DNA of 33,969 bases from Alphaproteobacteria bacterium. GTDB taxonomy: Bacteria; Pseudomonadota; Alphaproteobacteria; Rs-D84. The DNA is taken from NCBI GenBank assembly GCA_016927395.1, contig JAFGMU010000004.1, positions 1-33,969 on the forward strand. The letters are read 5' to 3'. Made by a program: the position numbers and the translations under genes. This document shows positions 8,489 through 31,948 of this stretch, piece by piece. A model generated the notes under the pieces. The model was given only the letters and a program-made list of their open reading frames with translations, did not search any database and was not told where the DNA came from. The first letter of the stretch is position 1; each line of letters opens with the position of its first letter.

Positions 8489-8520
8489 AATAAACTGCGC
8501 TGATGTGCAGTTTATTTTTT
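8489..8520. terminator. Bidirectional terminator between yidC and the convergent orphan
   Basis: AATAAACTGC (8489-8498) and GCAGTTTATT (8507-8516) form a 10-bp stem with an 8-base loop, with T-runs on the right and A-runs on the left. It can serve both yidC and the minus-strand gene whose stop codon (8512-8514) lies in the stem. Confidence 0.85.
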
Positions 8521-8862
8521 TGTTAATTGTTTATACAATTGGCCCGGTGTCCAGATAAATGGATTTTTTATTCCAATAATATGTTTAACAACAGCAACAC
8601 ATGATAAAGAATGTTTTATGGAACACAGGTGATGTTTTTGATTTGCTGTATTTGCGTTTGTTTTTATAAAAATCCATCCATTATGTTTTAATATATTCAA
8701 ATCGCGCTGGGTTAATGTAAATATATCCAGTGTTCGCAATGATGGGTTTAACATCAGATATTTATCATCATCGTATTTGAATATCACTGCACAATGACGA
8801 AATTTCCTGCAAAATATTTTTGGTAAAATTTTAGAAGTATTTTTAGAAAAAACAATTATCAT
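8512..8862 (-). CDS. Small orphan protein, possible permuted papain-fold (NlpC/P60-like) enzyme
   Basis: 116 residues from the ATG at 8862, which has an AAGGA site seven bases upstream; a TTG at 8868 is possible but unlikely. Visible pattern: FRHCAVIFKYDDDKYLMLNP with His23 heading a beta-rich region, and later LSCVAVVKHIIGI with Cys88 at the start of a helix, followed by a WTPGQLYKQL end. The His-then-Cys order is that of circularly permuted NlpC/P60 (LRAT-like) thiol enzymes. I have a weak recollection of alphaproteobacterial, partly phage-linked, proteins with the same FRHC...TCVEAVK...TPWQLY pattern. The function is unproven. It follows another minus-strand orphan behind a hairpin. Confidence 0.6.
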   Translation of the reverse strand: MIIVFSKNTSKILPKIFCRKFRHCAVIFKYDDDKYLMLNPSLRTLDIFTLTQRDLNILKHNGWIFIKTNANTANQKHHLCSIKHSLSCVAVVKHIIGIKNPFIWTPGQLYKQLTKK

Positions 8863-8880
8863 TTTCAATTCCTTTTAATT

Positions 8881-8915
8881 AAATAACAGTGCAATAATCT
8901 TTTGCACTGTTATTT
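8881..8915 (-). terminator. Long perfect hairpin between the two orphan genes
   Basis: A 14-bp perfect stem, AAATAACAGTGCAA (8881-8894) with its complement at 8902-8915 and a 7-base loop. On the minus strand it follows the stop of the 8926-9273 gene and is followed by a short T-rich tail. It may terminate that gene or stabilise transcript ends. Confidence 0.7.
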
Positions 8916-8925
8916 AAGTATATTT

Positions 8926-9273
8926 TCAATCTATCCATCCTTTTGATTTTGCAGCAGCTTCTATAATCTGCATTGCGGAATGCCAAATAGCAGCTTTATG
9001 ATTTTCAGCCCATATATGTTGGTGTGGCGAACGTCGTTTGTCGCCAAATTCTTTCATTACATCTAAATGTTCTGACGTTAAAGATCCCGAAAGATAAAGT
9101 TTTGTAATTAATGTTTCCACATCCAATAATTCACAAATTCTTTTAGTAGAATGATTATTTCTTATTGAAAAACCATTTCGAATTTGTTTTGAATATAAAA
9201 ACCAGAACCATAATTGTTCTGAATTGTGAAACTTTTCTGCTGTTAAAATAGGCTTTATTGTCTGTGGGGACAT
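8926..9273 (-). CDS. Conserved-looking hypothetical protein, helical
   Basis: 115 residues with a clear AAGGAGAGAG Shine-Dalgarno before the ATG at 9273. No family is assigned. Features that look constrained are SEQLWFWFLYSKQIRNG near the N-terminus, RICELLDVETLITKLYLSG in the middle, LTSEHLDVMKEFGDKRR and a C-terminal AIWHSAMQIIEAAAKSKGW. The pattern (WFW, a CE/ECE-like motif, LY, H.xV..xG, LW..AM..IE..xKG) reminds me of a small phage- or GTA-associated protein of alphaproteobacteria, but this is recollection without a search. It is predicted soluble, with no signal peptide. It is a neighbour of the 8512 orphan on the same strand. Confidence 0.65.
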   Translation of the reverse strand: MSPQTIKPILTAEKFHNSEQLWFWFLYSKQIRNGFSIRNNHSTKRICELLDVETLITKLYLSGSLTSEHLDVMKEFGDKRRSPHQHIWAENHKAAIWHSAMQIIEAAAKSKGWID

Positions 9274-9478: not shown

Positions 9479-9510
9479 AAAATAAAAACCGCATTTGCGG
9501 TTTTTATTTT
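9479..9510 (-). terminator. Terminator overlapping the virB10 stop
   Basis: A 15-bp perfect stem, AAAATAAAAACCGCA (9479-9493) with its complement at 9496-9510. The A/T flanks make it work in either direction. The virB10 stop codon (9504-9506) is inside the stem. Confidence 0.85.
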
Positions 9511-11837
9511 ATAGGTGGAAAACAATCACCGCCACCTGATGGGCAACAGTTGAATCCTTGGTCACCCATGTCTGTATAAGTTTCACCTGGGCAACATCCA
9601 TTCGTGTCTGGTGAAACACCATTGTCACATGTTATTACAGATGTTTCAGCCGTTGTTGGTTTTGTTTCTTCGAATGGATTCTTTATAGTTCCATCATCGT
9701 TATATTTCAAGCCCAAAACCTTTTCATTATATTCTTTTGACCCTTGTTGCATTTTTACAGTGTTTCCTTTATCGTCTTTTGTTGTCAGACTGGTCTGTTG
9801 TTGGTTTTGATAAACAGCATTTTGTTTCGCATTGTTTATAGCTTTGTATTGATTTGATTGGCAATAGAAAACAACTGTTCGATAATCTAAACCTGCATTC
9901 TGAATTGTAGATGCTGCAGCTGATACACTACCTTTGCCATCGCAATATTGATCCAGATTAAATGAACGAACCTGACCAACCAATGTTTCTGGTTCAGATT
10001 GACCAACAGTAAATTTTTTAACATTGCTGCTGGTTGAAGCATAGTTTTCATCATATGGCGATATTGCACATTTTTTACCATTTTCCTGACCACATGTAAC
10101 AATCAAGTCATTTGGTGAAAATACTGTGATACGTGTACCGGCTGCAACAGAAAATGGTGGTACAGTGTTATCAATCATATCGACTAATAATTTCTGAGCA
10201 ACATTATTCCATGCTTTAATAATTTCATTCTTTGCCAATTCACTGGAACGAACCTGACCAGTTTGTGTAACTGTATTGTTATCCAAATCAATCTGGTTAA
10301 CGAATTTGTCAGATATTGGTGCAATCATATTCACCGCCGCTGGTACAACTGCAGTTAGCATTGGCATAACAAACTGTTCAACATAATCTGTACTGCCACG
10401 TCCTGGAACACCTGTACGTCCCTGAGCATCAGCTGAGAATGGTTTATTTCCAGTAAAATTAAATTCTACACCATCTGGACGAACAAATCTGTACCATTCA
10501 ATATTTATACGACCAATTGATTTATATGGTCCTGGTAAATCAGAATCAGATACCGCACCCAACATCATAGTTCCAGCAGGTATTATAACAGTACGTCCAT
10601 TATCAGAATAAACATTACGATCAACGGTTGCTGTGACAGGTAAACGTGTTTCACCAGCAACTGCACGTATTTCAGAAACAATTGTTGCAGGTATTGGTTT
10701 ATATTGACGCAATACAAAAGTTCTGTCATATGGTCTGGACGATACAGTTGCTTCGCTTCCAAAAGAAGATGGTAACATACTGGTATCAGATGGTGGTGCA
10801 GAAGCAACGTGTGAAGATTTACCATAAGTTTGACCAATCAATTCAGCGGATGTCAGTTGTCTGGCTTTGTTAATTGATTGTGAGCTAATGGGGTTTGAAA
10901 GTTGTGGAATAACACCATTTGATATTGTTCCATATCCAATATGTTCAGCATCCGTTCCGATCTTTTTCGAAGGATCATTTATGTCAGTAATAATTCCATT
11001 GTCCGGATTATAATAACCAGTTGGTGCAACGCATGCAGTATCAGAAAAAGGATGAAATTTATAATTACCCTTTTCAGGTTTTATCCAACCAATTTGTTGT
11101 CCTGATGAATTATATCCAGGAAAAGAAAAATCAGAGCAAGCTTCTGCTTTTGTTTTTTCATTTTTTCTTTGTGGTTTTAAATCTTGTGCAGGTTCTTCAG
11201 CAGCAAATTGTTTTGTTGATTCTGGTTCAATATTTTTATCAGAACTGAAAACATCACTGGGTGCAATAGATTCTATTTCTTGTTTAATTGGTGGTTTTTG
11301 AACAGCAACAGATTCTGGTTTTGATAATTCTTGTTGTGATACTGCACCGATTGCAATTGTAATTTTTTCTGTACGGTTCATTTTTTCAGGCTGGTCTGCG
11401 CCACGCCAATCAATAAACAAAGATAGTGCTGTTGCATCCATTTCTGATTTTGGTGAATAATTCAAATTTATTGTGCATGAAATAGTTTGATTTATTTGTC
11501 CAATGTTTGTGCAAGTTGTTTTTGGTTTTGATAATCCCAAAATATCTTTTGATAAACGTATTGCATCAACCTTTACAGGGACATTTGAAGATATAATGAA
11601 TCGCTGACTTTTTATTTCACCTACTTTTGTGGTTGCCCAATCCAAAGAATCTGGATCAATATTCAAAGCCGCCTGAACAGTTTCATTCGTACCAACATTT
11701 GCCTGTTTTTTATCACCACGCATCAACAAAGTTAACAGTATAAGCACGACTATAAAAGCAGCAATCAATAACAACCATTGCACATGCTTAGGAGTGTTTT
11801 GTTTTAATTCTGAAAATTGTGCTTTTAGATTTGCCAT
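9504..11837 (-). CDS. virB10: Type IV secretion VirB10/TrbI-like channel protein with Ig-like insert and Cys-rich tail
   Basis: 777 residues, much longer than standard VirB10 (about 380-480). One transmembrane segment (about 20-40) follows a short cytosolic head. Residues 65-147 look like an Ig-fold ASH/MSP-type domain (VGEIKSQRFIISSNVPVKV, two Cys, a NLNYSPK segment, ALSLFIDWRG). A low-complexity linker follows (165-230), then a small Cys-containing part (234-300). The TrbI/VirB10 beta-barrel is at about 375-585, with RLPVTATVDRNVY, VIIPAGTMMLGAV, SIGRINIEWYRFVRPDG and a PFSVAAGTRITVF C-terminal strand. About 190 extra residues end with six cysteines (737, 748, 749, 764, 765, 772). VirB10 links inner and outer membranes in the T4SS core. 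DotG/IcmE is an alternative relative. The Shine-Dalgarno is weak (AAGG, 13 bases upstream). Confidence 0.85.
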   Translation of the reverse strand: MANLKAQFSELKQNTPKHVQWLLLIAAFIVVLILLTLLMRGDKKQANVGTNETVQAALNIDPDSLDWATTKVGEIKSQRFIISSNVPVKVDAIRLSKDILGLSKPKTTCTNIGQINQTISCTINLNYSPKSEMDATALSLFIDWRGADQPEKMNRTEKITIAIGAVSQQELSKPESVAVQKPPIKQEIESIAPSDVFSSDKNIEPESTKQFAAEEPAQDLKPQRKNEKTKAEACSDFSFPGYNSSGQQIGWIKPEKGNYKFHPFSDTACVAPTGYYNPDNGIITDINDPSKKIGTDAEHIGYGTISNGVIPQLSNPISSQSINKARQLTSAELIGQTYGKSSHVASAPPSDTSMLPSSFGSEATVSSRPYDRTFVLRQYKPIPATIVSEIRAVAGETRLPVTATVDRNVYSDNGRTVIIPAGTMMLGAVSDSDLPGPYKSIGRINIEWYRFVRPDGVEFNFTGNKPFSADAQGRTGVPGRGSTDYVEQFVMPMLTAVVPAAVNMIAPISDKFVNQIDLDNNTVTQTGQVRSSELAKNEIIKAWNNVAQKLLVDMIDNTVPPFSVAAGTRITVFSPNDLIVTCGQENGKKCAISPYDENYASTSSNVKKFTVGQSEPETLVGQVRSFNLDQYCDGKGSVSAAASTIQNAGLDYRTVVFYCQSNQYKAINNAKQNAVYQNQQQTSLTTKDDKGNTVKMQQGSKEYNEKVLGLKYNDDGTIKNPFEETKPTTAETSVITCDNGVSPDTNGCCPGETYTDMGDQGFNCCPSGGGDCFPPIK

Positions 11838-11859
11838 AGATGTTCAAAAACCTTATTTT

Positions 11860-11879
11860 CTGGGTGTTTTAACACCCAG
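11860..11879 (-). repeat. Intercistronic palindrome between virB9 and virB10
   Basis: CTGGGTGTTTTAACACCCAG is a perfect 9-bp-arm palindrome with a 2-base centre. There is no T-run after it on the minus strand, so it is probably an mRNA-processing or stabilising hairpin rather than a terminator. Confidence 0.7.
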
Positions 11880-11883
11880 ATAA

Positions 11884-13359
11884 TTATTGTACTCTTACTA
11901 CGTGACAGCTGGTGCCTGAAAACTTTAACATTTGATCACACAGCTTTTGTGCGTTGTCAATATCTGACATAGGACCAATACGCAAACGATACAAACGTGC
12001 AGTTGCAGAATCAGATCCTAAATCACCAACGCCTTGTTCATCAACCGCAAAGAATACCATATTTTTATAAGGTGTCAAAATACCTTTGCCATCTTCACCA
12101 CTGAACTTGGCTAATAGTCCAGTCCAATAATCATTCAATGCTTTGACCGAAGTATCTGATTTTAATTCAACCGCAACACCTGTCTGATTGCTGCTGATAA
12201 GCGGAATGTTTGTCTGTGGTAAATAACTGCCTGCTGTTGTTCTTTGTGTTGGCAACATGTTTACACCCTGGGTTTGTGACCCATAATATGATCCAGATGT
12301 AGCTGCAGTAATACCATAGTTTACAGTTGGTGCAACACCGTATCCATTGGAAGAAACAACTGTTGGTGTATTATTTAAATAAGCAACATTGTTCAAAGAT
12401 TGTGTCGAAGCCATACTTTGAGCAACATTTGATTCAGCCAAGGCCATAACACTTGCAGTGTCTGCAATTAAGAATGGTTTTTCACGTTTTTTAATACATA
12501 CAATTCGCTGACCCGAACGTAAAACCATATCTCCTACGGCTTCTACTATCATCAGTCTGCCATTTTCACCATCTGTGCGGAAACCAACAGGGCTTTCGCC
12601 ACCTTCAACCAACAATGATACAACAGGTCTTTGTGTCATAGCGATAACCTTGTCACCGAAATCTATGTATGTGAATATTCTATCACGCCATACACGTTCA
12701 GGTGCAATCACATAATCATCAGGATTTGGAACAAAAATATCCAAATCAAAACGGAACTCGGATGGGTCAATTTTCATTGATTTTATCCAACCATAGTCTT
12801 CCCCATCTACACCAACAACACTGCTGCCAGATGATACTTTTTTGAAAATAGAATTCATACCAGCAGTTTGAGAAGTTGAACCCGAAGCATTTGGTATTGT
12901 GCTGTTACCATCCAATACAACATCAACCTGTGAATATGTTATTTCACTGGAATTTGCAGGTTCGCTGCGAAGATAAAAAATATATTTATTTCCAGATTTT
13001 CCAGTAACAATCAAATTAGTGTCAGCACCCTGATTGCTGCCAGCCGGAGTTATGTACATAGAACGACCGTTTTTTTGTGGATCAAAATCAAACAAATCTT
13101 GATTTCCAACAACACCATCTTCTATTTGTTCACCCATTGGTAAATTCACCATTGTAACCATTCCGTTACGCAGCTTGATTGGTAAAACACTGCCTGAGAC
13201 CCAAGTTAATTGAGCATATCCAGGCTTAGTACTGCCGGATGCCATGTTTGCATTTGGATTATCCCAAGCTTCTTGGATTCCTTCGGCGAATACAGTTCCA
13301 GGTATAACCGCCAGACAAAAAACCAGCGAGCCCAACTTAAACAATTTCGAAAACATCAT
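11884..13359 (-). CDS. virB9: Type IV secretion VirB9/TrbG-like protein with C-terminal SPOR domain
   Basis: 491 residues, against about 290 for a plain VirB9. A signal peptide ends near residue 25 (PGTVFAEG). The VirB9 N-terminal domain is recognised by PIKLRNGMVTMVNLP and the conserved KYIFYLRSE end. The C-terminal VirB9 domain spans about 205-300 (PERVWRDRIFTYIDFGDK, PVVSLLVEGGESPVGFRTDG). After a linker rich in Asn, Thr and Gly, residues 400-491 form a SPOR-like domain (LYRLRIGPMSDIDNAQKLCDQ, then TSCHVVRVQ). VirB9 forms the periplasmic/outer-membrane ring with VirB7 and VirB10; no VirB7 lipoprotein is visible here. The SPOR domain would anchor the ring to peptidoglycan. A GGAAGGA site precedes the start; virB8 ends 23 bases upstream. 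Confidence 0.85.
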   Translation of the reverse strand: MMFSKLFKLGSLVFCLAVIPGTVFAEGIQEAWDNPNANMASGSTKPGYAQLTWVSGSVLPIKLRNGMVTMVNLPMGEQIEDGVVGNQDLFDFDPQKNGRSMYITPAGSNQGADTNLIVTGKSGNKYIFYLRSEPANSSEITYSQVDVVLDGNSTIPNASGSTSQTAGMNSIFKKVSSGSSVVGVDGEDYGWIKSMKIDPSEFRFDLDIFVPNPDDYVIAPERVWRDRIFTYIDFGDKVIAMTQRPVVSLLVEGGESPVGFRTDGENGRLMIVEAVGDMVLRSGQRIVCIKKREKPFLIADTASVMALAESNVAQSMASTQSLNNVAYLNNTPTVVSSNGYGVAPTVNYGITAATSGSYYGSQTQGVNMLPTQRTTAGSYLPQTNIPLISSNQTGVAVELKSDTSVKALNDYWTGLLAKFSGEDGKGILTPYKNMVFFAVDEQGVGDLGSDSATARLYRLRIGPMSDIDNAQKLCDQMLKFSGTSCHVVRVQ

Positions 13360-13382
13360 AACAAATCCTTCCTGTTTGATTT

Positions 13383-14030
13383 TTATTTAAAATCCAATGG
13401 ATCACCATTACCTGATTCAACCGAATATTGGGAAACACGAATTCCCAAAGGGTTATCAAGACGGTCGGTCCATTTTATTGTGTTTTCCAACTTCAATTTC
13501 AGTACGATTGTATAATCTTTTTTGGTGGTCTGTCCATCACTATTTGTGCAGAAATATCTAAAACTTACTGCATAAGTATTTTCTGTTCTGGGTGCAATAC
13601 CTGTAAATTCAACAGGACAGTGAAATTCAAAGTCTGGAACTTCGTTCATATATGCTGTCCACATAGAAGTTTTTGCAAATTCAGAATATACTTGGGGGGT
13701 GCTCCACATATAAACTGTACCATCTTCGCTGGCAGACCATTTCTTTTGCATAACACCAGCGTTTGGAATTATTTCATTACGTGCCTTGATATATTCTTTT
13801 ATAAAAGCTTGTTTATAAATTTCAATATTTTCTTCATCTGGTGTAAACGAAGATAATCTGATTTCCAAGTCATTTTTTGGTTGGGTCGTTAAAAAGAAAA
13901 CCTGAGTTTTATTCAGAGGATACATTTTTACCAATGTGACAACAAGCACAATAACAACAACCAATGCTGCTGAAAATACAAACGTCATCAACCTGGACAA
14001 CAAAACTGGCGGCTCTATGCTATCTGACAC
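13383..14030 (-). CDS. virB8: Type IV secretion VirB8-like inner-membrane protein (GTG start)
   Basis: 215 residues from a GTG at 14030. The open frame can be read from a TTG at 14084, but an AAGGAGAG Shine-Dalgarno sits about 10 bases before the GTG and no in-frame ATG lies upstream. A single transmembrane segment (LMTFVFSAALVVVIVLVVTL) is followed by a periplasmic NTF2-like domain with the VirB8 landmarks FIKEYIKARNEI, a W..PQVYSEFAK helix, YAVSFRYF and a final strand ending LDNPLGIRVSQY. VirB8 nucleates assembly of the secretion channel. It is the first gene of the virB8-virB9-virB10 operon. DotI/TraM-type proteins have the same fold, but the order argues for VirB8. Confidence 0.82.
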   Translation of the reverse strand: MSDSIEPPVLLSRLMTFVFSAALVVVIVLVVTLVKMYPLNKTQVFFLTTQPKNDLEIRLSSFTPDEENIEIYKQAFIKEYIKARNEIIPNAGVMQKKWSASEDGTVYMWSTPQVYSEFAKTSMWTAYMNEVPDFEFHCPVEFTGIAPRTENTYAVSFRYFCTNSDGQTTKKDYTIVLKLKLENTIKWTDRLDNPLGIRVSQYSVESGNGDPLDFK

Positions 14031-14340
14031 TGATCCATCTCTCCTTGTTCTGGAATTGTAGAAAAAAAACAGCCTGTGGTGCAAGCGAAAAATAGTTAAA
14101 AATAACGTATTAGTTGATATAAATTGAAGATACCAAACAGTTAATATTAAAAATCACCAATAATTCTCAAATTTTACTGTATTTTTCGCTTGCGATTAAT
14201 AAATTAAAGCTTTATAATACTTTCCGCTTGATTTTTAGTTATCTTGTGCTATCGTAGCGCGAGTTACTGATGCAAAAAGCGGTATTTTTGGCAGATTTTG
14301 CAGTTGTCGTGGCTGCCTATTTCTGTCGCTGATAACTATT
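14031..14340. promoter_or_regulatory. Divergent control region between virB8 and tRNA-Trp (310 bases, no gene)
   Basis: On the minus strand a TTGGTA / TAATAC pair (18-base spacer) within about 14105-14135 may drive virB8. On the plus strand there are two tandem promoters towards tRNA-Trp. P1 is TTGCGA (14190-14195) / TATAAT (14213-14218), spacer 17. P2 is TTGATT (14228-14233) / TATCGT (14250-14255), spacer 16, with a GC-rich discriminator (AGCGCG) typical of stable-RNA promoters. A 14-base inverted repeat lies on both sides of the virB8 promoter. Confidence 0.6.
14081..14193. repeat. 14-bp perfect inverted repeat bracketing the virB8 promoter
   Basis: GCAAGCGAAAAATA at 14081-14094 recurs inverted as TATTTTTCGCTTGC at 14180-14193, 85 bases apart. 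The right copy overlaps the -35 of P1 for tRNA-Trp; the left copy is in the presumed virB8 leader. It could be a pair of regulator sites with DNA looping. Confidence 0.7.
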
Positions 14341-17706: not shown

Positions 17707-20700
17707 ATGGCCGTTATCCAAAAATTTAGAAAATCTTTTGGTAGAAGTTTCTTGAAAACACCATTGCCGGATCTTGTTGAAATCCAATACAGTTCGTACA
17801 AGGATTTTTTGCAGGCGGAAATTGAACCCGAAAACCGTAAAAATATTGGTTTGCAGAATGTGTTCTCTTCTATGTTTCCGATAAAGGATTATGCAGGTAT
17901 CGCTGATTTAGAATTTGTCGAATACAAATTGGACAAACCTGTTTATAATGTAAAAGAATGCATGTTGCGCAACATGACATATTCCAGCAAGTTGAAATTA
18001 AGATTAAGATTGATTTTGTGGGATTTGGCCGAAGATGGTAAAAAAACTTTGCGCGATATCAAAGAACAAGAAATATTTATGGGCGAAGTTCCATTAATGA
18101 CAGAACGTGGAAGCTTTATCGCATCAGGTGTTGAACGTGTAATTGTATCACAGATGCATCGTGCCCAGGGTGTTGTATTTGGTACAACAAAAGAATCAAA
18201 AATTGCTGGAAACCCAACAACATATACAGCCAGAATTATTCCTGAACATGGTAGCTGGATTGATTTTGAAGAATTCAAAGGCGTAATTTACGTTCGTATT
18301 GACCGTCGTCGTAAAATACCTGCAACAGTATTGTTGCGTTGTTTGCCATCAGCCGCTGATGAAAAGAAATGGTTGGCAGATCCACGCAAATCAAATGTTC
18401 AAGGTATGTCTGATACTGAAATTTTATCATCTTTCTATAAAAAGATTTCATTATCATCAGATGGTAAAATGTGGGTTGGTGAAACATCGGTATTTGAAGG
18501 TATGGAAAAATATCGTTTGAATTACACCATGTTTAATCCAAAAGATAAAAAACCAATCGCTGAAAAAGGCGAGCGTTTAAACGCAAAGAAAATGGCAAAA
18601 ATCACTTCCAATAATTTTGGTGTTTTACCAGAATCTTTGATTGGGGAATATTTGTTTGATCCAATTATGAATGGCGAAGAACTTATGTTCGCAGCTGGTA
18701 CAGAAATAACAGAAGAAGTTTTGGCTGATTTGGAAAAAATGGGAACAAAAGAAATTTCCATTATTGCCATAGATAATGCAACAATTGGTGCACATGTCAG
18801 AAATACTTTGATTGCTGACAAGACCACAAATCGCGAAGAAGCATTGATTGAAGTTTATAATATTATTCGTCCAGGTGAACGTCCAACATTGGAAGCAGCT
18901 ACAAATCTGTTTATGCGTCAAGGATTTGATTCTTCATATTATGATTTGTCAGCTGTTGGTCGCTTTAAGATGAATAAACGTTTGAAAATAAATTCTGGTA
19001 AAAACCCAGAAGATGAACGTTTACTAACAAAATCAGATTTTATAACTGTACTGCGCACATTAGCAAACATTATAGATCACAAAGATGTTATTGATGATAT
19101 TGATAACTTGTCAAATCGTCGTGTTCGCACAGTTGGCGAATTGTTGGAACAAAATTTCCGCACTGGTTTGGTTCGTATTGAGCGCTTGGTTCGTGAAAGC
19201 TTGTCCAGTCCGAATATTGCAAATATGCAGCCACAAGATGTAATTAATGCAAAACCATTAATGTCTTTAATTTCTGAATTTTTGGGTACATCACAATTAT
19301 CACAGTTTATGGATGCACAAAACCCATTGGCAGAATTGGAACACAAACGTCTTGTTTCCGCATTGGGTCCTGGTGGATTGAATCGTGATCGCGCAGGTAT
19401 TGACGTTCGTGACGTTCATCCGACTCATTATGGTCGTTTGTGTCCAATTCATACACCAGAAGGTGCAAATATTGGACTGATTAATCATTTGGCGTCTTAT
19501 GCACGTGTTAACCCTTATGGATTTATCGAAACACCTTATTACGTTGTGAAAAATGGAAAGATAACAGAAGAAATTGTATATCTGACTGCTGACGAAGAAT
19601 TGGGACATAAAATTGCCCAGGGTAATACACCTACAACTGGAACAGGTGCATTGGCAGAAGAATTAGTCACAGCACGTGTTGATGGTGAATTTACAATGGT
19701 TCCAAAAGAAGAAATTGATTTAATTGACGTTGAGCCACGTCAGGTAGTATCAATTGCAACAGGTTTAATACCGTTCGTTGAAAATGACGACGCTAACCGT
19801 GCTTTGATGGGATCAAACATGCAACGCCAGGCAGTTCCTTTGTTACGCGTAGATGCACCATTGGTTGGTACTGGTATTGAACGCGAAGTTGCACGTGACA
19901 GCCGTTCAGGAAAAGTTGCAAAACACAGTGGTGTTGTTGAATCTGTTGACAGCAATCGTATCGTTGTAAAATGTATGAACAGCCGTAATGTTGTGACAGG
20001 TGTTGATATTTACAATATGGAAAAGTTTGAACGTTCAAACAGTGAAACATTGATTCATCAAAAACCATTGGTAAAAGTTGGTGACAGAATATCTGCCGGT
20101 GATATTATTGCTGACGGTTCTTCTATGAATTATGGTGAACTGGCTTTGGGTAAAAATGTATTGGTAGCATTTATGCCTTGGCGTGGATATAACTACGAAG
20201 ACTCTATTGTTATTTCCGAACGTATTTCACGTGACGACGTTTTCACATCTGTAAAAATCGTAGAAAAAGAATTCAAAGTTCGTGATACACAATTAGGTCC
20301 AGAAAGCTTTACACGCGACATTCCAAATGTCAGTGAAGAAGCTTTGAAAAACTTAGACGAATGCGGAATCATTTATGTTGGCGCACGTGTAAAACAGGGT
20401 GATATTTTGGTTGGACGTGTTTCGCCTAAATCTGAAACTTTGTTAACACCAGAAGAAGCATTGTTGCGTAATATCTTTGGTGAAAAAGCTTTGAATGTAA
20501 AAGATACATCATTGCGCGTTGGTGCAAATGAAGAAGGTACAGTAATCGGCGTTAATGTTTTGACACGTCATGGTGTTAAAAAAGACGAACGCACCCAAAT
20601 GATTGAATTGCAAAAAATCGAAAAGATAAATAAAGATCGCGACGAAGAAATTGCAATTATCGAAAAGGGATTTGCAGATCAGATTTATCAAATCGCAGAA

Positions 20701-28604: not shown

Positions 28605-29063
28605 ATGTCATTGTTTCTTTCATCTTATGAAAATCGCTTGGATACAAAAGGGCGTATTTCCGTTCCGGCATCCTTTCGTTCTTCTGTTGCCTCGGAAAAC
28701 TTTTCAGGTGTTGTTTTATATCGTTCTTTTACAAATAACTGTATCGAAGGTTTATCTATGTCCCGTATGGAAAAGCTGGCGTCTGCCACTGACCAGATGG
28801 GTGTTTTTGATACTGAGTTAGATGATTTATCTGCAATGTTGTTTGCAGATGCCAGACCATTACAATTTGATGTTACTGGTCGTATCGTTATTCCAGAAGA
28901 TTTGCTGTTGCATGCAGGAATCAAAGATACAGCAGTTTTTGTTGGTCGTGGTAACAGTTTTCAAATATGGAATCCGACCGCATTCAAAGAAATACAAAAT
29001 AAATCATTGGGTAATTTACGCAAACTGCGCCCCAACTTAAAAATAAAATCTGATGATAATTAA
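28605..29063 (+). CDS. mraZ: Transcriptional regulator / division-cluster protein MraZ
   Basis: 152 residues with two SpoVT-AbrB-like swapped-hairpin repeats: YENRLDTKGRISVPASFR near the N-terminus and LQFDVTGRIVIPEDLLLHAG in the second half. MraZ represses the division and cell-wall cluster in several bacteria by binding repeats upstream of itself. Here it is isolated: the following gene is convergent, and rsmH (mraW) and ftsI are absent. Both DTKGRI and DVTGRI DNA-contact motifs are intact. An AGGGA site precedes the ATG. Confidence 0.93.
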   Translation: MSLFLSSYENRLDTKGRISVPASFRSSVASENFSGVVLYRSFTNNCIEGLSMSRMEKLASATDQMGVFDTELDDLSAMLFADARPLQFDVTGRIVIPEDLLLHAGIKDTAVFVGRGNSFQIWNPTAFKEIQNKSLGNLRKLRPNLKIKSDDN

Positions 29064-29082: not shown

Positions 29083-29111
29083 AAAAAATCGCGCGATTTG
29101 CGCGATTTTTT
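29083..29111. terminator. Bidirectional terminator between mraZ and the secreted protein gene
   Basis: AAAAAATCGCGC (29083-29094) and GCGCGATTTTTT (29100-29111), a 12-bp perfect stem with a 5-base loop, suits both convergent genes. Confidence 0.9.
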
Positions 29112-29115
29112 AATT

Positions 29116-31269
29116 TTAAACTGGACATACTCCGGATACAGATGCTCCGACTTTATTACATGTACAGAACACGCCTGATGGATAGCTTGCTGAAACCACA
29201 GCATAAGTAGTTGTACTTCCTGTGCTTATAGCTGTTTTAGAGCTATCATAAGTGGAGTTTGAAGGACATACTGCACCGCCTGCCGATGCGATTATAGAGT
29301 TTTTATTTGCTGTGGCTGTCGCACCATATACAACACTGGAACAAGTAGTTATAACAGGGTTGCAAGCATTCGCAGCAGTTGCAGGAGATGCTGAATAGTT
29401 ATTTGTTGATAAGCAAGACGAAACATCAGAAATGCAACTTTCGGCATAATCAGATAATTTGTTATCTTCTGAAGACTTGATTTGTATAAGCGTACGTTGA
29501 AGATAGCTTTTTATTACCTCATTATTTTTTTTGTAATTACCAGTTGTTTTATCATAAGTATGATCTTGGCATTTGTTCAATACAGACATGCACATACCAT
29601 AATTAGCTCCATCACTATCATCATGATAACCAATTTTGTTTTCTAAATAATCAACCATACTGATTGGGTTTGCAGAAGCTGTGCCTAAATATTGATTTAT
29701 AAATGCATCAACTGTACCATTACCCCAAGCGTTGGATACTGATGGTGATGTGTAATTCCAGACATTATATAATCCAGTTGCGCTTGATGATGATGATGTT
29801 AATCCACCACCAGATAACCCTGGTTCACTGCCAACAACAACTTTGCCGTTAACAATATATTTACCAGATGGATCCAAGCAGTTTTCATAATCACTGCCGC
29901 ATACATAGTCATCTTGCATACAAGAATCCAAAGCGTTTATACATCCGCGTAAATCATAAGAATTCTTTTGCTGTGCTACGACTAATCTTGCCTTTTGTAA
30001 AACATTTTTTGCATTTCTGACAGTTGAAATCATTTGTGTATTCGCATCGGTCAGATTACGTTCATATGCGATACATTGTTTATCAATTTCCAAATCATAA
30101 GTGTTTGCAACAACCGTTGTATCAACACCCTGTGATTTGCAGGAATCTAAAACAGCTGATTTGCAACGCGCAGTTGCAGTTTTATAAAGTTCTGCCCCGC
30201 GTTGGTTGCTGATGCTGTTTGTCGATGTTCCCCCACCAAACAATGAATTCAAATCAAAAGAAGAATCAGTAAATGTAAAATCCAATAAGCTGGCCAAATC
30301 CAAACTTGTTCCTGTGTCGCTGGAAACAGAAGAACCGCTTTTTATGTCTAAAACAAGACTTTTTACTCTGTCTAAATCATTCTTTAACTGAGTGCTATCA
30401 GTTTTGCTTTGCATTTCAGATTCCGCTTCGGTCTGTGTGAACAAAGTGCTGATTTCATCTTTTGTCAAACCAATATATTGAATCTTCTGAGCAACATCCT
30501 GCAAATCTTCGGTTGCTTGCTTCAAAGCTTCTTCGGTTTTTGAATAATTTTTTATATTCGCAGAACAACTGCAACGTCCCTGATTATCATCCAAAACATT
30601 ACAAAAATTATCCATACATTGTGTGTATTGTGCTTTGCAGAAATCAGTTAACTGAGCAATCTGATCCATAGTATTTGTTGTATCTGCCACAGTCGTATTT
30701 GAAACTGCTGTTGTTCCACCAGTTGCTGCACGTATTGTTATAGGCGCCCGAGTTGTTGTGCTGGTCGGTCTGACACTGACGCGAGCAGTTGAATAGTAAA
30801 GTGGAGTATTAACTGTATCTGTCTGAGTCAAAGTAGTTGCGCGCGCAGAATTTGTAGTAGAACCACTGTTTCTACGAGAAGTAACATTTTGTGCACCTGA
30901 ACGCAACGAAGTAGTTGATGCATTATCACGTGCACGAACGGTTGTTCCTGTTGTTGTACGGCTGGAAATAGAACGTTGCGCGTTGTTACGTGAAGATACA
31001 TTAGTTATTGTTGCAGGCATCGCGCGGGTAGCATTACGTGAAACAGTTGTATTACGAGGACTTACCGATGTTGGAACAACTGGAATAACCTGTTGTTTAT
31101 CATCTGGCTGTACATCTTGTACCTGTGTTGTCGTATCGTCAACAGATGACTCATCAGTTTGCATTTCATCAGTATATTGTAACTGGTCATCATAATAATT
31201 TGCCGGCACTACTTCTGCAAAAGCGGGTAACACCAATAATCCAGATAGCACTGCAATAAATCTTTTCAT
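29116..31269 (-). CDS. Secreted Cys-rich protein with Thr/Ser/Arg-rich stalk, family unknown
   Basis: 717 residues from the ATG at 31269 (an upstream TTG at 31272 is less likely); an AAGGGA site precedes it. A clear signal peptide (residues 1-18, ending AFA) directs export. Residues 40-200 are low complexity and rich in Thr, Ser, Arg and Asn. Then come a cysteine module (Cys211, 218, 223, 233, 235), a predicted coiled coil (about 243-310), further paired cysteines (369, 377, 399, then 443, 450, 457, 464 in CINALDSCMQDDYVCGSDYE) and a C-terminal third with a Ser-rich linker and more cysteines. No catalytic motif is recognised. Disulfides imply a periplasmic or surface location. It could be an envelope adhesin or scaffold; that is a guess. 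Confidence 0.8.
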   Translation of the reverse strand: MKRFIAVLSGLLVLPAFAEVVPANYYDDQLQYTDEMQTDESSVDDTTTQVQDVQPDDKQQVIPVVPTSVSPRNTTVSRNATRAMPATITNVSSRNNAQRSISSRTTTGTTVRARDNASTTSLRSGAQNVTSRRNSGSTTNSARATTLTQTDTVNTPLYYSTARVSVRPTSTTTRAPITIRAATGGTTAVSNTTVADTTNTMDQIAQLTDFCKAQYTQCMDNFCNVLDDNQGRCSCSANIKNYSKTEEALKQATEDLQDVAQKIQYIGLTKDEISTLFTQTEAESEMQSKTDSTQLKNDLDRVKSLVLDIKSGSSVSSDTGTSLDLASLLDFTFTDSSFDLNSLFGGGTSTNSISNQRGAELYKTATARCKSAVLDSCKSQGVDTTVVANTYDLEIDKQCIAYERNLTDANTQMISTVRNAKNVLQKARLVVAQQKNSYDLRGCINALDSCMQDDYVCGSDYENCLDPSGKYIVNGKVVVGSEPGLSGGGLTSSSSSATGLYNVWNYTSPSVSNAWGNGTVDAFINQYLGTASANPISMVDYLENKIGYHDDSDGANYGMCMSVLNKCQDHTYDKTTGNYKKNNEVIKSYLQRTLIQIKSSEDNKLSDYAESCISDVSSCLSTNNYSASPATAANACNPVITTCSSVVYGATATANKNSIIASAGGAVCPSNSTYDSSKTAISTGSTTTYAVVSASYPSGVFCTCNKVGASVSGVCPV

Positions 31270-31296: not shown

Positions 31297-31325
31297 ATTA
31301 TATCACAGACCGTAAACTTGGGCAA
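31297..31325 (-). promoter_or_regulatory. Promoter of the secreted Cys-rich protein gene
   Basis: On the minus strand TTGCCC (31320-31325) and a perfect TATAAT (31297-31302, preceded by TGA) are spaced by 17 bases. Confidence 0.65.
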
Positions 31326-31489: not shown

Positions 31490-31948
31490 ATGAAAAATAA
31501 CGAAGAAACAATAGATACTGCAGCAGAAGCGACAGTGGAAGAAACGGTAAAAAAAGCTGCTGGGAAAATAGTATCAGTAGAATTAACAGAAGAACAATAT
31601 GCTTTTTTAACTAGCTGGCAAAAAACACATGAAAATGAATTGGGAATAGAAATTCCAGTTGGTGCATTAGTACGCAAAGCAGTTGATGCTGCAATGAAAT
31701 CACAGAATAAGCCTGAACGTTCTGAACGTCGTGATGGTGATCGTGGCGGTGAAAGAAAAAGTTTTGGTGATCGCCCACCAAGATCCGACAGTCGTGGTGG
31801 TCGTGATGGTGGCAGACCAAGTTTTGGTAGTCGCGAAGGTGGTCGCCCATCTTTTGGAAGTCGTCCAAGTTTTGGTGGTTCTTCACGTGGACCAAAATTC
31901 GGTGGTTTTAACGACAAAAAAAATGTTGTCAGAAAATTTGATAAATAA
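31490..31948 (+). CDS. Ribbon-helix-helix-like protein with RGG/RPSFG-rich disordered tail
   Basis: 152 residues. Residues 1-23 are acidic. Residues 24-70 (GKIVSVELTEEQYAFLTSWQ and IPVGALVRKAVDAAM) read as a strand-helix-helix of the CopG/ribbon-helix-helix type, a DNA-binding dimer fold. From residue 75 the chain is disordered, with repeated GGRPSFGSR units (about 107-130) and many RGG/RDGG motifs, like the tails of RNA-binding proteins. Strong Shine-Dalgarno AGGGAGG. The combination suggests a nucleic-acid-binding protein, possibly able to self-associate; the function is unknown. The DNA underneath the tail is itself repetitive. Confidence 0.7.
   Translation: MKNNEETIDTAAEATVEETVKKAAGKIVSVELTEEQYAFLTSWQKTHENELGIEIPVGALVRKAVDAAMKSQNKPERSERRDGDRGGERKSFGDRPPRSDSRGGRDGGRPSFGSREGGRPSFGSRPSFGGSSRGPKFGGFNDKKNVVRKFDK

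Follow-up and report, generated by a model that had tools for sequence, protein, structure and literature searches.

The gene at 29116-31269 of the window (the whole stretch of 33,969 nucleotides that was analysed) encodes P0001, a protein of 717 aa which, to judge from its sequence, is very probably exported and disulfide-paired. We suggest that it is a disulfide-stapled envelope or surface protein of a new family restricted to one order, most probably Rs-D84, a proposal that we place midway between likely and unlikely. Rs-D84 is an uncultured order from animal guts, thought to live off partner cells; for Rs-D84 and Candidatus Enterousia an obligate symbiont or parasite lifestyle with no respiration has been proposed, and hypothetical membrane proteins have been proposed to serve in transport or cell contact (PMC12306168). 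The P0001 family is unmentioned in that paper, and a literature search, which apart from it did not extend to full texts, gave nothing on a contact apparatus of Rs-D84 or on the family. Being close to universal in the order, the family can serve as its marker, and it is a concrete candidate for the partner-contact apparatus, with an architecture that can be tested. The features referred to below are as follows.

29116-31269, minus strand: P0001, a probably exported Cys-rich protein of 717 aa in an order-restricted family (ATG at 31269, stop at 29116-29118)
31216-31269, minus strand: putative signal peptide, residues 1-18 (by eye: KR, a hydrophobic core, and AFA before E)
31081-31215, minus strand: acidic spacer, residues 19-63 (9 Asp, 2 Glu, 0 Arg and 1 Lys in residues 20-63)
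30655-31080, minus strand: Arg/Ser/Thr stalk, residues 64-205, without Lys or Cys (composition count)
29977-30654, minus strand: core domain 1, residues 206-431, with the signature, helices and 8 invariant Cys at 211-399 (alignment; AF2 model of moderate confidence)
30565-30639, minus strand: signature C-x3-Y-x2-CMD-x-FC-x9-C-x-CS, residues 211-235 (invariant at the C, Y, M, D, F and S positions in 9 aligned own-genome copies)
29302-29976, minus strand: core domain 2, residues 432-656, with 10 invariant Cys as five C-x6-C pairs (alignment; confident predicted fold)
29119-29301, minus strand: C-terminal tail, residues 657-717, 4 Cys, lineage-specific (alignment and comparison of ortholog tails)
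29083-29111, no strand: terminator-like stem in the gap towards which P0001 and mraZ converge (sequence scan)
31297-31325, minus strand: promoter-like site upstream of P0001, TTGCCC-17-TATAAT with a TG ahead of its second hexamer (sequence scan)
28605-29063, plus strand: mraZ, separate from the P0001 protein (found in 25 of 44 ortholog loci)
9504-14084, minus strand: virB10, virB9 and virB8, possible partners of P0001 (Pfam matches; linkage and tail comparison)

The promoter-like site at 31325-31297 is weak evidence, as the region has 10 such sites against 9.8 in shuffles. P0001 has the convergent mraZ on one side and a divergent small Arg/Gly-rich ORF on the other. This ORF (31490-31945, plus strand, 152 aa) has a second half of Arg/Gly/Ser-rich low complexity with RPSFGSR repeats, and had no Pfam match at E 0.01.

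An earlier note on this DNA had described an exported protein that combines a signal peptide, a basic low-complexity Thr/Ser/Arg stalk and regularly spaced cysteine pairs, and that fits no recognised family, and this description is borne out. The signal peptide was read by eye as MKRFIAVLSGLLVLPAFA followed by EVV. No lipobox was seen in it and a lipoprotein was rejected on that reasoning. The stalk of 142 aa has 16 Arg and no Lys, with 55 Ser and Thr, 4 Asp and neither Glu nor Cys, compared with 9 Arg and 30 Lys in residues 206-717 (stalk against body, Fisher p = 7e-8). This bias is general, with means of 17.4 Arg and 1.9 Lys in the stalk region across 60 orthologs; among the ten copies in the same genome stalk Arg is never below Lys, being clearly above it in most and equal (3 and 3) in one. 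The spacing C-x6-C occurs 7 times in P0001 as against a mean of 0.9 in shuffles, with 7 reached in only 1 of 20,000. With its signal peptide, and with the invariant Cys residues and even Cys numbers discussed below, P0001 has the look of an exported protein made for an oxidising compartment.

With regard to novelty, P0001 has nothing over the curated cut-offs in Pfam or NCBIfam, eight of its own paralogs have nothing over the Pfam cut-offs, and a sequence search of PDB with P0001 gave no match. Up to E = 10 the only Pfam matches to P0001 are FTA4 and the Matrilin coiled coil (Matrilin_ccoil), and over 53 aligned members of the family three Pfam families weakly match one or two members, with a best E of 3.4e-4. 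The FTA4, Matrilin_ccoil and TNFR_ELAPOR1 matches, all below cut-off, and that of Laminin_II (2 of 53 members, best 5.9e-4) were taken as coiled-coil or Cys bias.

The genome itself has ten genes with a P0001-type core, which add up to about 7,700 aa and take 3% of an assembly of 779 kb. They are in the window and on contigs 37 (two), 20, 27 (two), 6 (cut by the contig end), 22 and 34 (two). Nine of them align over the core with 21 invariant columns, comprising the signature and then further Cys pairs, and were used as a profile, C37_700 being left out as its second half aligned poorly. Searching with the single sequence gave matches in 41 of 60 relatives, these being 36/36 in the same taxonomic family (own genome included), 5/18 in other families of the order and 0/6 in other orders. 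The profile, at E <= 0.01, picks up 141 of 142 genomes in the order, with 8 to 21 matches per genome in the same taxonomic family and 0 to 10 in the others, although one gene can yield more than one match. At E <= 0.001 only 5 of 385 genomes in a sample of the class match, all five within the order, and only 2 of 398 in a sample of the phylum, both in the same taxonomic family; there were no matches in the remaining 380 class and 396 phylum genomes sampled. Those relatives that bear names are Alphaproteobacteria assembled from metagenomes, and most of the names refer to gut or rumen. It is thus strongly supported, within the samples searched and on sequence grounds, that P0001 is a member of a new, order-restricted paralogous family. 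Given a family that is order-wide and partly syntenic, phage or mobile-element cargo was rejected by reasoning.

Copies vary in length: short ones of about 300-500 aa predominate among those read from f4 genomes, and long copies are also present in f3, f5 and f6. One relative of P0001 (L036:10001-14158, plus strand) has a giant tail, giving 1385 aa and 56 Cys; a match of this tail to the Listeria-Bacteroides repeat (Flg_new) was below cut-off and was rejected. In genome G039 (f5) a tandem array of three family members and two further Cys-rich ORFs (L156:8862-17326) is downstream of apparent ribosomal-protein genes.

For conservation we used an alignment of 53 sequences, comprising P0001, 51 orthologs and one own paralog (L080). 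The source was 61 candidates, with three (L036, L034, L004) set aside earlier; dropping L007, L015, L020 and L021, which do not have the pattern, left 57, and five candidates cut by contig ends (L017, L022, L049, L050, L065) were kept out. There are 66 invariant columns over the 53 sequences, and all 18 core Cys residues (211-643) are present in 52 of the 52 other rows. An even number of invariant core Cys implies complete pairing.

The numbers of Cys point the same way. Over the stretch that runs from the first Cys of the signature to the C-terminus, all 54 of the 54 complete orthologs, P0001 included, have an even number of mature Cys, in a range of 18 to 56, as do 46 of 51 complete paralogs, with five odd. 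This count took in 105 of 141 family ORFs, the others being incomplete, without the motif pattern, or duplicates. As the orthologs are related to each other, we assessed parity by counting change events on a tree of the core: the number of tail Cys changed at least 22 times with every state even, a figure that depends on one FastTree topology of 51 tips (the alignment minus L064 and the paralog L080). Among control ORFs of these loci that have at least 8 Cys, those not exported-looking are 54 even and 39 odd, and those exported-looking and outside the family 6 even and 9 odd, a division that rests on a crude signal-peptide pattern. P0001 has both the signal peptide, as read by eye, and the even Cys number by which candidate DsbA-type exported disulfide proteins are recognised. 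Even numbers of Cys in exported proteins are used as a sign of disulfide pairing in PMC7678975, which cites Dutton et al. 2008. Metal or haem binding by the Cys residues was rejected by reasoning, since parity and export favour disulfides.

The machinery for making disulfides was found only in part. A DsbA-like protein of the Thioredoxin_4 type is found in 48 of 54 genomes of the order; that of G010 matches PF01323, and those in the f1 loci read have, by eye, a CPYC motif and a hydrophobic N-terminus. DsbB was found in none of the 54, as against five of six other members of the class, and VKOR in none of the 54 as against one of the six. That DsbB has been lost is consistent with the absence of respiration reported for the order. 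We are left with a redox puzzle, in that the order has many disulfides and a DsbA, with no known partner oxidase.

The body of P0001 is helical, the AF2 model of residues 199-717 showing long helices, one of which spans residues 384-434. This model has a mean pLDDT of 76 and a pTM of 0.60, with weak stretches in domain 1, and Foldseek gave no match to it in PDB at E <= 0.001. VIA-align against PDB gave generic helical bundles. Its top row (Z 7.0, rmsd 7.2 over 149 residues, other rows lower) is PDB 4e40, a three-helix bundle of the trypanosome haptoglobin-haemoglobin receptor type, which resembles the helical N-terminal part of the body, but Z values in this range are common for unrelated helical bundles and Foldseek does not support the likeness at that threshold. 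Domain 2 alone (432-656), modelled from the 53 sequences, is much better, with pLDDT 92.3 and pTM 0.88. Its best matches in PDB are at E 1.1 by Foldseek and Z 2.3 by VIA, and in a viral library at E 2.8. The top Foldseek rows, for a Weissella toxin-like protease (probability 0.06-0.08, TM 0.14-0.16) were treated as noise. Domain 2 may be a new fold, as far as the predicted model can indicate.

The tail behaves quite differently from the core. In blocks of twenty residues mean identity to P0001 is 0.21 to 0.92 within the core, and above 0.4 in most blocks; in the three blocks starting at residue 659 it drops to 0.08, 0.09 and 0.15. The clearest case is L023, an ortholog in the same genus, which is 79% identical to P0001 in the core and 13% in the tail, where one shuffled tail gave 20%; the cores of L005 and L006, which belong to two other genera, are less similar (68 and 67% identical), but their tails are still visibly related (56 and 44%). 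The simplest account of these identities, as they are read from the sequences, is a replacement of the tail in the line leading to L023. Tails of the close species represented by L009, L010 and L011 are 0.83-1.00 identical, and the change seen in tails is therefore between lineages. The tails of P0001 orthologs have only weak matches to other proteins of the fetched loci, namely other family members and two other ORFs, so recycling of tails from a shared pool was not supported within these loci.

Lineage-specific tails that have been replaced, and expansion into many paralogs, are seen more typically in exposed proteins, and a frozen core with a variable tip is of a general kind known in lineage-expanded families of surface proteins. 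P0001 resembles such families in its ten own paralogs, invariant Cys scaffold and replaced tails; it differs in having no sequence in common with them and in tails that differ between species, and its exposure is something that we infer. We envisage that the signal peptide would send P0001 out of the cytoplasm, where a DsbA-like protein would form the disulfides of a two-domain helical core with its 18 invariant Cys fully paired. The long, nearly Cys-free, Arg-rich stalk that comes after the signal peptide region may tether the protein to anionic envelope polymers or span the periplasm, and the core may act as a rigid spacer. The tail would then be the exposed part touching the partner cell, and this contact would account for a changing tail on a frozen core. 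Whether P0001 is such a surface-exposed scaffold with a variable contact tip we regard as finely balanced.

One alternative, which we consider unlikely, is a cross-linked coat, in which an intermolecular disulfide lattice stiffens the envelope as OmcA and OmcB do in the Chlamydia elementary body. The ten family genes in one genome would suit a coat, as would the further Cys-rich, exported-looking ORFs near family copies, one of them with an OmpA domain, and Chlamydia offers a precedent. From what is given in the parts of PMC2229832 and PMC6752827 that we draw on, OmcB is, like P0001, an exported Cys-rich protein with a basic N-terminal region after the signal peptide, and Chlamydia shares with Rs-D84 a host-dependent lifestyle and the presence of DsbA. 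However P0001 has no Pfam match to the chlamydial Omc family, and its even parity and 18 invariant Cys suit closed intramolecular pairs better than free cross-linking Cys. The XBBXBX heparin-binding motif of OmcB, described in the portion of PMC2229832 used here, is absent from all 62 P0001-family stalks inspected, and C. trachomatis, by the section of PMC6752827 concerned, has the DsbB that was found in none of the 54 genomes of the order.

The earlier note had also seen in the cysteines an echo of the VirB10 tail, and had proposed a surface component of the same VirB envelope machinery. In favour of this, all five VirB10 proteins read from the taxonomic family of the window, which has the largest P0001-family sets, end in a conserved Cys-rich tail and have 14 to 16 Cys in total; the six read from sister families f2, f3 and f4 have 4 to 6 Cys and no such tail. 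In the window the tail (VirB10 at 9504-11837, minus strand) has the pattern C...GCC.GE.YTDMG..GFNCCP..GGDCFPP, and it may have arisen in a single evolutionary event. The exported look of the proposed component also stands, but its membership of the VirB machinery is conjectural: no VirB, Trb or Cag model in Pfam or NCBIfam matches P0001, and among the 23 ortholog loci no shorter than 18 kb only 5 have a gene of type IV secretion type, one of these five holding only VirB6-like ORFs unconfirmed by Pfam.

It seems quite improbable that P0001 serves a VirB type IV secretion system as accessory or substrate, exported by Sec, folded with disulfides and then either docked on the VirB10/9/8 channel or released through it. 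The genome has parts of such a system, with virB8, virB9 and virB10 of the window matching their Pfam models and a virB4 elsewhere, beside which is a weak, sub-threshold VirB3 match. In four of four hand-picked genomes a row of four tandem membrane-protein ORFs keeps synteny with the C37 pair of family genes, dnaQ and uvrD lying in between, and in L033 an ortholog is between the tandem membrane-protein operon and virB10-9-8. We take these ORFs to look like VirB6, but they have no Pfam match to VirB6/TrbL. Co-occurrence says little, as VirB10 (49 of 54 genomes) and the P0001 family (141 of 142) are both near-universal in the order. Five genomes have the family and no VirB10 match (G007, G022, G023, G029 and G045), of which only G023 is 99% complete and the others 56-82%, and G041 has VirB10 and no family match. 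Also against the link, G037 (f3) has several family matches with a VirB10 of only 4 Cys (its N-terminus cut). A link of P0001 to the VirB machinery is therefore possible but weak, the linkage being loose. A more far-reaching proposal, and a rather unlikely one, is that this respiration-free, partner-dependent order has a surface built of its own family of disulfide-locked proteins of new fold with exchangeable tips, that its DsbA has an acceptor which is neither DsbB nor VKOR, and that in one of its taxonomic families VirB10 has gained the Cys-rich tail by which the secretion channel joins this layer.

Two further observations concern the virB genes. VirB9 (11884-13359, minus strand, 491 aa) has a C-terminal SPOR-like stretch scoring 20.9 against the Pfam cut-off of 21 bits, which from its sequence may be a peptidoglycan contact. 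Two small ORFs (8512-9273, minus strand, 118 and 115 aa), with no Pfam match at E 0.01, are conserved beside virB10 in L033, L054, L060 and L170.

It is also distinctly improbable that P0001 is a periplasmic structural or stress protein, a scaffold for folding, redox buffering or association with peptidoglycan which stays below the surface. No anchor was found in P0001, which could thus stay periplasmic, and no outer-membrane route for it is known. The mraZ, mraW and lpx neighbours of family genes, and the copies beside hpf- and rubrerythrin-like genes in f4, would suit such a role. The replaced tails and paralog expansion, as noted above, argue for an exposed protein.

The neighbourhoods of family copies are varied, and the envelope-type genes near some of them, mraZ included, count in favour of an envelope or surface role. 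A divergent ORF of about 530 aa recurs in many of the 44 ortholog loci, in L033 as a phospholipase-D-type protein, and some loci have a GalE-like gene. Among other family copies, that of L155 has rseP, bamA, ompH and lpxD nearby, that of L154 is a few ORFs from bamA, and the own copies on contigs 22 (L085) and 20 (L081) are near lpxB-lpxA and mraW respectively. In the f4 loci L151, L155, L157 and L160 the copy adjoins the hpf- and rubrerythrin-like genes, as read by eye, with the domains confirmed in L151 only. About 4 kb from the family copy in L082 is a gene for an exported-looking protein of 574 aa (17955-19679, minus strand) with an OmpA domain (Pfam E 2.9e-14), in which glycine-rich hydrophobic stretches and a Cys-rich EGF-like stretch can be seen by eye.
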